From positions 124,001 to 188,000 of the forward strand of contig CACZXH010000005.1 of assembly GCA_902785065.1 (NCBI GenBank): 64,000 nucleotides of DNA, read 5' to 3'. The number at the start of each line of letters is the position of its first letter. The stretch's first letter is position 1. Below the pieces are notes generated by a model that was given only the letters and a program-made list of their open reading frames with translations, made no database searches and was not told where the DNA came from. Shown here piece after piece: positions 45,354-46,707 of this stretch. This DNA is from an uncultured Bacteroidia bacterium. GTDB lineage: Bacteria > Bacteroidota > Bacteroidia > Bacteroidales > UBA932. The position numbers and the translations under genes are program-made.

Positions 45354-45365
45354 GCGAATAATGTG

Positions 45366-45373
45366 TATTTTTG
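45366..45373 (+). promoter_or_regulatory. -7 promoter element of the methyltransferase gene
   Basis: TATTTTTG ends 8 bases before the ATG at 45382. Its position rules out the in-frame ATG at 45361 as the start. Confidence 0.5.
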
Positions 45374-45381
45374 CAATGCCA

Positions 45382-46707
45382 ATGTCTTTCGCCGATTTCA
45401 TATTGCAACACGAGGGGGACGATCCCGTCCGCCTTCTCCTGGCCCGTGACAAGTACCCGGAGGTCGATATCGACCTGGCTGTCACGACGTTGGAAGTGCG
45501 GCGCAAGCTCCGGACGAAAGTCCCCGAGTGGTATGCGGTTCCGTCGCTGATTTATCCCTTCCGGCTCTCCGGAGAGCAATGCAGTTCGAGTGAAACCGCC
45601 AGGTATAAGGCAAGGGTTTGCGGGAGCAGTTTGGTCCCCGAACCGTCGCTTCGCGACCCCTCCCATAAATGGGCCCCTCCCTCTTATGCGGCCGAGGGTG
45701 GCCACAGGTTCGGGGACCAAACCGCTCCCGCAAATGAGCGTTTGAAAATTGCTGATTTGACGGGTGGTATGGGGGTCGATGCGTGGGCGTTTGCGCAGGT
45801 GGCGGAGGAAGTGCTTTATAATGAGATGCAGGTTGAATTGGCGCGGGCGACGGAGTTGAATTTCAGGGAGTTGGGGGTGGAGAACGTGCGGTTTCGGAAC
45901 TGCCGGGTGGAGCCGGGGAAGGTTGCGGAGGTGCTGGACGGGTTTCGGCCTGATGTCATTTTCCTGGATCCGGCACGCAGGGCCGGGGACGGGCGGAAGG
46001 TGTTCCTGATCGAGGAGTGCCAGCCGGATGTGCTGGGGCTGCTTCCGGAACTGTTCGAGGCGAGCCGGTACGTGCTGCTGAAACTCTCGCCGATGGCGGA
46101 CATTACCATGGCCTGCAAGCGGCTGGGAGCGCACGTGAAAGAGGTGCACGTCGTGGCGGCGGGAGGGGAGTGCAAGGAACTCCTGTTCCTGCTGGACCGC
46201 GACTGGGAAGGGGCCCCTGCGACCTTCATCGTCGAAGGCGGCGCCGTGATGGAGATTCCCGGTCAGGCCGGGAATGACGGTCCCTCCCTTGTCATTTCGA
46301 CCGGAGCGAAGCGGAGTGGAGAAATCTGGCTCTTCGAACCCGGGAAGTCCCTCCTCAAGGCCGGGGCGTTCGACCTGCCGTGCGAACGGTTCGGCTTGAC
46401 CAAGCTGGGGCAGCATACGCATCTGTATGTGGGTGAGGCCATACCGGAGGCGTTGCGGCCGTTCGGGAAGGTGTTCGAAATCCTGGAGGTGCTGCCCTTG
46501 AACAACCGGACGATGAAGGAGGCGGGAAGGCGGTGGCCGCAGGCCGAGGTGACGGCCCGGAATGTGCCCATGACCTCCGACCTGCTGCGGAAGAAGCTCG
46601 GCTGCGCCTCGGGCGGGGACATCCACCTGTTCGGCGTCCGGATCGAGGCGGCCGCGGAAGCGGGTAACTACTTGATTGTAACTAAGAAACAATATGGAAC
46701 AGATTGA
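45382..46707 (+). CDS. Class I SAM-dependent methyltransferase (THUMP-like domain) carrying two in-frame repeat insertions
   Basis: 441 residues from MSFADFILQH. An N-terminal helical part has SGEQCSSSETARYKA; the SAM-binding strand is IADLTGGMGVDAWAF, the catalytic-type loop DVIFLDPARR, and the C-terminal THUMP-like part runs from FEPGKSLLKAGAF to the end. Family members go almost directly from ARYKA to the SAM strand. Here about 40 residues (CGSSLVPEPS ... TAPANE) come from a 118-bp inverted-repeat element, and about 22 more (PGQAGNDGPS ... KRSGE) from two small repeats. Both keep the frame, so the gene may still work. Substrate unknown. DUF4298 and CPBP genes follow. Confidence 0.82.
   Translation: MSFADFILQHEGDDPVRLLLARDKYPEVDIDLAVTTLEVRRKLRTKVPEWYAVPSLIYPFRLSGEQCSSSETARYKARVCGSSLVPEPSLRDPSHKWAPPSYAAEGGHRFGDQTAPANERLKIADLTGGMGVDAWAFAQVAEEVLYNEMQVELARATELNFRELGVENVRFRNCRVEPGKVAEVLDGFRPDVIFLDPARRAGDGRKVFLIEECQPDVLGLLPELFEASRYVLLKLSPMADITMACKRLGAHVKEVHVVAAGGECKELLFLLDRDWEGAPATFIVEGGAVMEIPGQAGNDGPSLVISTGAKRSGEIWLFEPGKSLLKAGAFDLPCERFGLTKLGQHTHLYVGEAIPEALRPFGKVFEILEVLPLNNRTMKEAGRRWPQAEVTARNVPMTSDLLRKKLGCASGGDIHLFGVRIEAAAEAGNYLIVTKKQYGTD
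45617..45734. repeat. 118-bp MITE-like inverted-repeat element inside a coding sequence
   Basis: The left arm (45617-45644, starting TTTGCGGGAGCAGTTTGG) and right arm (45707-45734, ending CCGCTCCCGCAAA) are 28-bp inverted repeats with one mismatch. The interior has a GTCGC-TTC-GCGAC hairpin and a CCCAT-AA-ATGGG hairpin. The right part includes GAGGGTGGCCACAGGTT, shared with 7584-7600. It is translated in frame within the methyltransferase. Confidence 0.88.
46253..46327. repeat. Two dispersed repeats inserted in frame in the methyltransferase gene
   Basis: 46253-46279 is a GTCATTCCCGG-family palindrome (ATTCCCGG-TCAGG-CCGGGAAT) in the same orientation as the one at 37179. 46290-46327 is a TGTCATTTCGACCGGAGCG-type repeat ending GAGAAATCT. 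They are read as PGQAGNDGPS and ISTGAKRSGEIW. Confidence 0.85.

Follow-up and report, generated by a model that had tools for sequence, protein, structure and literature searches.

A dispersed hairpin element of rumen and gut Bacteroidales with predicted in-frame copies in many housekeeping genes

A near-perfect hairpin lies inside the reading frame of a methyltransferase gene in an uncultured bacterium of the Bacteroidales (UBA932). Is it a native loop of the enzyme that happens to fold, or an inserted repeat that is now read as protein, and how are its arms and its interior kept? We addressed these questions from the window, meaning the whole stretch of 64,000 nucleotides analysed here (contig CACZXH010000005.1, positions 124,001 to 188,000). 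The original prediction described a MITE-like element, translated in frame, and held that a Bacteroidota equivalent of the Rickettsia palindromic elements (RPE) would be of interest. The features discussed below, all on the + strand, are as follows.

45361..46707, +, host gene, a PG_1098-type class I SAM-dependent methyltransferase (ORF list, Pfam, PDB)
45617-45644, +, left arm of the element, 28 nt (inverted-repeat search)
45645..45706, +, conserved core, 62 nt (family listing and alignment)
45645..45657, +, core hairpin 1, GTCGC..GCGAC (96.2% of cells paired)
45662..45673, +, core hairpin 2, CCCA..TGGG (92.0% of cells paired)
45687..45706, +, core hairpin 3, around GGCC-GAGGGT-GGCC (95.2% of cells paired)
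45707-45734, +, right arm, reverse complement of the left arm with one mismatch (inverted-repeat search)
46252..46328, +, second in-frame repeat, unrelated, with two short units at ~46252-46282 and ~46288-46328 (own-genome matches)

Hairpin and host gene

The near-perfect hairpin claimed at 45617-45734 was confirmed. Its arms, 28 nt each, were 96% complementary with one mismatch and 62 nt between them, and they formed the sole inverted repeat reported within 45400-46000. The hairpin strand folded better than dinucleotide shuffles (z = -6.9), none of 200 being equally good. The reading frame was free of stops, as claimed: the 448-aa ORF at 45361-46707, which starts at ATG 45361 or 45379, ran uninterrupted through the insertion. 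Pfam PG_1098_Fer and Thump_like matched the C-terminal part of the protein, and PDB 3LL7 matched it with E=4.4e-50. Homology to 3LL7 broke after query residue 80 (chain 90) and restarted at 120 (chain 93), so that the join holds 39 residues in the window protein and 2 in the structure, in agreement with the claim of about 40 residues added at a short connector.

Alignment of orthologues revealed sites without the core, as an insertion predicts. The 55 best-scoring orthologues were retrieved, 54 from the genus and one from the order, and 53 could be assessed. The core stood at the same landmarks in 9 of them (linker 46-55 aa) and was absent from the join in 44 (linker 9-71 aa, 30 of them 9-24). 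No distant orthologue was seen that shares these residues and lacks the inverted repeat. In two copies, those of G019 and G118, the core was reversed. One of the 44 core-less genes, that of G255, holds a truncated element copy.

Several side observations concern the same gene. In the G255 linker the right half of the element is replaced by other sequence, and other long, differing expansions occur at this join (L124 in G252, L126 in G115, L125 in G255). G019 carries a second element copy directly upstream of the gene, besides the internal one (L012, 1349-1448). The repeat at 46252-46328, whose units we take to resemble CGTC-type REPs, had 45 own-genome matches, mostly in two blocks of the query; several orthologues lose alignment around it, near residues ~276-309.

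Repeat family, host genes and alleles

Comparison of 45617-45734 with its own genome gave 17 match rows, one of which was the palindrome matching itself in reverse, leaving 16 places and bearing out the predicted repeat. The element was matched in 36 of the 61 sampled genomes of the genus, which probably resembles Cryptobacteroides. An order-wide scan of 295 genomes (its own genome, one other of the genus and 291 outside the family among them) with a degenerate 31-base core pattern, required to match exactly, hit its own genome and none of the 294 others. In GTDB genomes this pattern hit at least 118 stretches; among the matches listed (80), all records were titled Bacteroidales or Bacteroidia bacterium, and many titles gave a ruminant or horse source. 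Viral contigs of the virus collection gave 0 exact core-pattern matches, and a search of Rfam to E 10 brought 4 matches, each far short of its gathering score. These searches define a structured palindromic element dispersed in genomes of rumen and gut Bacteroidales, with none in the sampled genomes outside its family. The total set came to 228 distinct copies and is biased by the methyltransferase searches.

Many copies lie inside genes. A pattern scan that is blind to genes returned 114 unique copies, 109 of them scorable, and 40 of these were open inside ORFs. The in-ORF calls come from a codon-score heuristic that misses the window copy itself; in its own genome 7 of 16 copies were called open in ORFs, or at least 8 of 16 with the missed window copy. 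Over all 228 copies, 81 lay in ORFs, 131 elsewhere, 15 had too little flank and 1 was in frame but stopped. An RPE is presumably read by its host in one fixed frame and orientation; unlike that, the 81 in-ORF copies were spread over all six orientation/phase classes.

Profile families were found for 18 of 20 scanned hosts (from 74 non-methyltransferase in-ORF hosts), and two had none. They included TrmB, YgiQ, glycosyltransferases, YggS, MurB, RibF, RapZ-C, an ABC ATPase, DapF, a papain-like peptidase, DnaX, FAD-dependent (HI0933-like) proteins, RNB ribonuclease, TruB and KsgA/RsmA. In a 2-oxoacid dehydrogenase E2 the insert lay between the lipoyl and E3-binding domains. A single profile match spanned the insert in five hosts (YgiQ, MurB, RibF, ABC ATPase and RNB ribonuclease). 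Judging by the open frames, the element is predicted to be read as a protein segment inside many housekeeping enzymes.

Some copies are missing from the sister genomes G003 and G172, whose longest matches showed 91-95% identity. The RapZ and RibF copies in G003 were plain partial deletions that leave remnants. Core-less TrmB, YggS and ABC ATPase alleles of G172 kept the left arm or outer part and had lost the rest, including the right arm. Judged by eye, two sites of the own genome lack both core and arms in relatives: L072 in 5 of 5 (in a poor alignment) and L069 in 3 of 4 fetched, the fourth, G172, holding a reversed core. Since neither arm is seen at these two sites, insertions that brought arms also happened. 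Across 15 filled/core-less comparisons no consistent target-site duplication was seen by eye, and several core-less alleles were deletions. For one G014 locus searched for an empty site, the nearest relatives were ~75% identical. The element is a repeat family with in-frame copies in many enzymes and with sites filled in several species.

Arms, cores and strand polarity

Elements measured 81-174 nt (median 121) with cores of 57-110 nt. The median arm length was 26 bp, and over the 228 distinct copies 235 of 5578 paired columns were mismatched. Core covariation was quantified with one copy from each of 52 sites, restricted to cores that begin with GTC and measure 59-72 nt. The three core hairpins had 94.3% of cells paired compared with 82.0% in shuffles, and a covariation of 0.255 compared with 0.088 (sliding controls <=0.078). 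Both-side changes occurred in 2 of 5 pairs of hairpin 1, in 5 of 8 pairs of hairpin 2, whose length varies between copies, and in 3 of 6 pairs of hairpin 3; three pairs were invariant in each. The innermost eight arm pairs were 98.0% paired (72.8% shuffled) with a covariation of 0.703 (0.211 shuffled) in alignment A3, which kept 37 of the 52 rows, the other 15, misaligned with a 3' part one base shorter, being dropped. On one of the five covariation measures, further pair types, the counts did not exceed the shuffles (core 20 vs 23.2; arms 14 vs 15.8). The stretches CCCTCCC, GGGCCCCTCCCTCTTA and GAGGGT were near-invariant in the core. At L155 (G072) about 30 further bases of near-perfect inverted repeat lie outside the arms, either an assembly fold-back or a real arm extension.

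The arms follow the site and the cores follow the family. Fifteen site clusters hold at least three copies. Left-arm identity over positions 7-24 had a median of 0.56 in same-orientation orthologous pairs (99 pairs), 0.47 in flipped orthologous pairs (62 pairs) and 0.33 between unrelated sites. The core was thus reversed in 62 of 161 site pairs; it occurs between the arms in both orientations at the same site, and arm identity of flipped pairs stays above that of unrelated ones. Conversely, at six or more sites of G014 the cores match fully or almost fully and the arms are unrelated, and G072 and G016 are alike in this. Of the 115 pairs whose cores were >=93% identical, 58 had an ungapped arm identity (positions 6-23) below 0.5, and the arms show a weak consensus between sites. 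Hairpin-2 sequences reappear at different sites and were identical within only 16 of 99 same-orientation and 6 of 62 flipped orthologous pairs. Because these variants recur between sites and are rarely shared within orthologous pairs, core exchange or conversion among copies seems to take place. The family therefore comprises covarying arms and core hairpins, either core orientation at a site, and partial deletions.

Most differing arm positions had changed on both sides with pairing kept (359 of 460, in the 68 same-orientation pairs with left arms >=50% identical; the other 31 of 99 were left out of this count). When each of 17 sites was represented by its closest pair, 64 of 88 differences were two-sided. 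The ratio of double to single-sided changes was 12:15 at left-arm identity >=0.90 (16 pairs), 30:17 at 0.80-0.90 (10 pairs), 59:19 at 0.70-0.80 (12 pairs) and 258:50 at 0.50-0.70 (30 pairs). These site pairs are not independent, the 359 of 460 overstates two-sided change, and the low-identity bins prove little, as misaligned, shifted or unrelated arms also score as double changes, both arms of each copy being complementary. By this split arms that diverged recently often differ on one side only, and older differences are mostly paired. Individual comparisons went both ways: at the intergenic site L006 all 5 of 5 differences between G000 and G003 were paired, and in the closest pairs L301/L313 and L109/L327 0 of 2 each. 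The window copy and that of G003 gave 10 of 11 paired, a weak figure, since the arms, compared without gaps, were just 54% identical.

The residual arm mismatches were strongly polarised. On the displayed strand, 110 were A/C or C/A, 28 G/T or T/G and 97 other; with one copy per site the contrast was 70 vs 21 (p = 2.5e-7). The A/C-type to G/T-type ratio was 26:3 where the host gene reads the displayed strand, 13:5 where it reads the other strand and 71:20 where no ORF was called, so that polarity tracks the core and not the host gene. The mismatches behind single-sided differences in pairs at >=0.80 were 22 A/C, 6 G/T and 6 other. An A/C mismatch on the displayed strand reads as G.U on its complement. 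It therefore seems that the complementary strand folds and comes under selection at some stage, regardless of which strand serves as host mRNA.

Explanations and known systems

We consider it probable that the copies are old, mostly inherited in-frame insertions tolerated in loops, whose arm pairing is kept stepwise and whose cores flip. The methyltransferase copy would be an old insertion in a loop that links the N-terminal part to the SAM-binding domain, and would have persisted because it preserves the frame and extra residues are tolerated there. In the arms, one side would change first, in most cases giving G.U on the complementary strand, before the other followed; pairing would be maintained by selection on the folded complementary strand, by slow arm-to-arm copying, or by both. 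Such compensation agrees with the polarity and with paired changes becoming commoner as copies diverge. Cores would flip by exchange between arms, and the recurrence of core variants at different sites would reflect core exchange or conversion between copies. Several points weigh against this account: most changes (15 of 27) in the 16 closest pairs are single-sided; a flipped core could have come from an insertion of its own; L069 and L072, core-less with no trace of arms, mean that arm-bringing insertions also occurred; and near-identical cores with unrelated arms could be recent insertions that took their arms from the target.

A neutral palindrome, whose arms are copied, cores flipped and copies deleted by DNA polymerase switching templates within the hairpin, with no selection on pairing, seems to us unlikely. 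According to the available text of PMC8604942 and PMC8794818, which treat yeast genes and RNA genes, template switching homogenises arms and inverts spacers, also in coding DNA (PMC8604942), and yields compensatory stem changes (PMC8794818). The Bacteroidales element is like these inverted repeats in having its core, as spacer, in both orientations, flipped in 62 of 161 site pairs, and the 5/5 paired differences at the intergenic site of G000 and G003 also fit. Unlike the cases in those excerpts, close Bacteroidales pairs show many one-sided changes, in the closest pairs about as frequent as two-sided ones (15 vs 12), a split on which one-step template switching was placed below stepwise compensation as the main keeper of the arms. 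The polarity of 110 vs 28 follows the core, moreover, a bias that strand-blind correction does not predict. Template switching between arms is the simplest account of the reversed cores and may also correct arms; it and stepwise compensation can act together, and the present data fit both.

About equally doubtful is the reading in which the arms are made at insertion, a structured core being copied into the target and the adjacent ~25 bp duplicated in inverted form. It would explain the cores that sit between unrelated arms in G014, G072 and G016, as well as the G172 alleles of TrmB, YggS and ABC ATPase with a left arm or outer part and no right arm. The latter can equally be microhomology deletions, given the clear partial remnants in RapZ and RibF, and the weak arm consensus persists between sites. 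As the main reading it is weakened by the shared sites, the partial deletions and the sites core-less without either arm (L072, L069). A stronger version, a new class of bacterial element in which a structured single-stranded core builds fresh inverted arms from the target and persists genus-wide as invertible translated hairpins in essential enzymes, we hold to be rather less likely still; as part of that same reading, the active strand would be the complement of the one displayed, and the element would need no terminal repeats of its own in order to spread.

It is very improbable that the element is a classical MITE, mobilised by a resident transposase and ending in conserved terminal inverted repeats. 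The short palindromic copies are dispersed as in a MITE, and among 34 hand-chosen genomes Y1-type (RAYT-like) transposase matches (E <=0.001) were commoner in the 17 with the element than in the 17 without an element match (16/17 vs 7/17; Fisher p = 0.0024), a contrast that weakened at the curated cut-off (14/17 vs 7/17, p = 0.03). The core lay within the fetched stretch at 1 of 20 Y1 loci inspected, and G014 (70% complete) had no Y1 match despite its many near-identical cores; the link to a RAYT as cognate enzyme is one of association only. The one locus with a core nearby is L381 (G172:C36). Since near-identical cores can carry unrelated arms, the ends are not conserved between copies, and fixed MITE ends are largely refuted. 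Of the original prediction, the in-frame palindromic insertion belonging to a repeat family is supported, and the term MITE-like in its strict sense is not. A native coding loop with an accidental hairpin and no insertion, to which the open frame would be congenial, is refuted by the genome-wide copies and the 44 of 53 orthologues without the core, and deserves practically no credence.

Elements of this kind are known already. In the available text of PMC10969869, RPEs are short palindromic DNA found in frame in many unrelated genes, and that of PMC3733652 places RPE-1 in a tRNA pseudouridine synthase B gene of R. conorii. The Bacteroidales element is similar in its in-frame insertion into many unrelated genes (40 of 109 scan copies in ORFs) and in its TruB host. 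In anatomy it differs by its multi-hairpin core and site-specific arms, and it comes from another phylum. The predicted equivalence to RPE hence stands for in-frame relatives in many genes and gives way for the several frames, the two orientations and the anatomy.

Intragenic palindromes outside Rickettsia, the CGTC and GTAG REPs, are already reported in the same source (PMC3733652), where CGTC REPs have no dedicated transposase and occur in five phyla including Bacteroidetes. Dispersed palindromes, some of them intragenic, are common to both. REPs as given there are 20-40 bp, CGTC units having 8-9-bp stems and 4-5-nt loops; the Bacteroidales elements, by contrast, have three internal hairpins and are 81-174 nt long (median 121). 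CGTC is present at the arm/core join of the element, and the structure that follows differs from the CGTC REP outlined in that text (CGTC tag, 8-9-bp stem, 4-5-nt loop, CCA tail). Coding palindromes with inverted repeats translated within proteins are also described in the accessible part of PMC6649704, for Nematomorpha mitochondria; there both arms encode conserved host protein, whereas the Bacteroidales palindrome is an added repeat.

We found no description of this element family in open-licence PMC text, which is weak evidence of novelty. Its outcome resembles RPE and its anatomy differs; within the text searched, the family, the multi-hairpin core, the site-specific co-changing arms and the two core orientations appear to be new. 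The family offers a Bacteroidota counterpart to the Rickettsia case that is rich in material: 228 distinct copies, alleles with and without the core, arms that change together, and cores in reverse. Three questions thereby become testable: the route by which a selfish hairpin turns into part of a protein, the role of selection as opposed to template switching in preserving long stems, and the identity of the single strand that counts for the cell.
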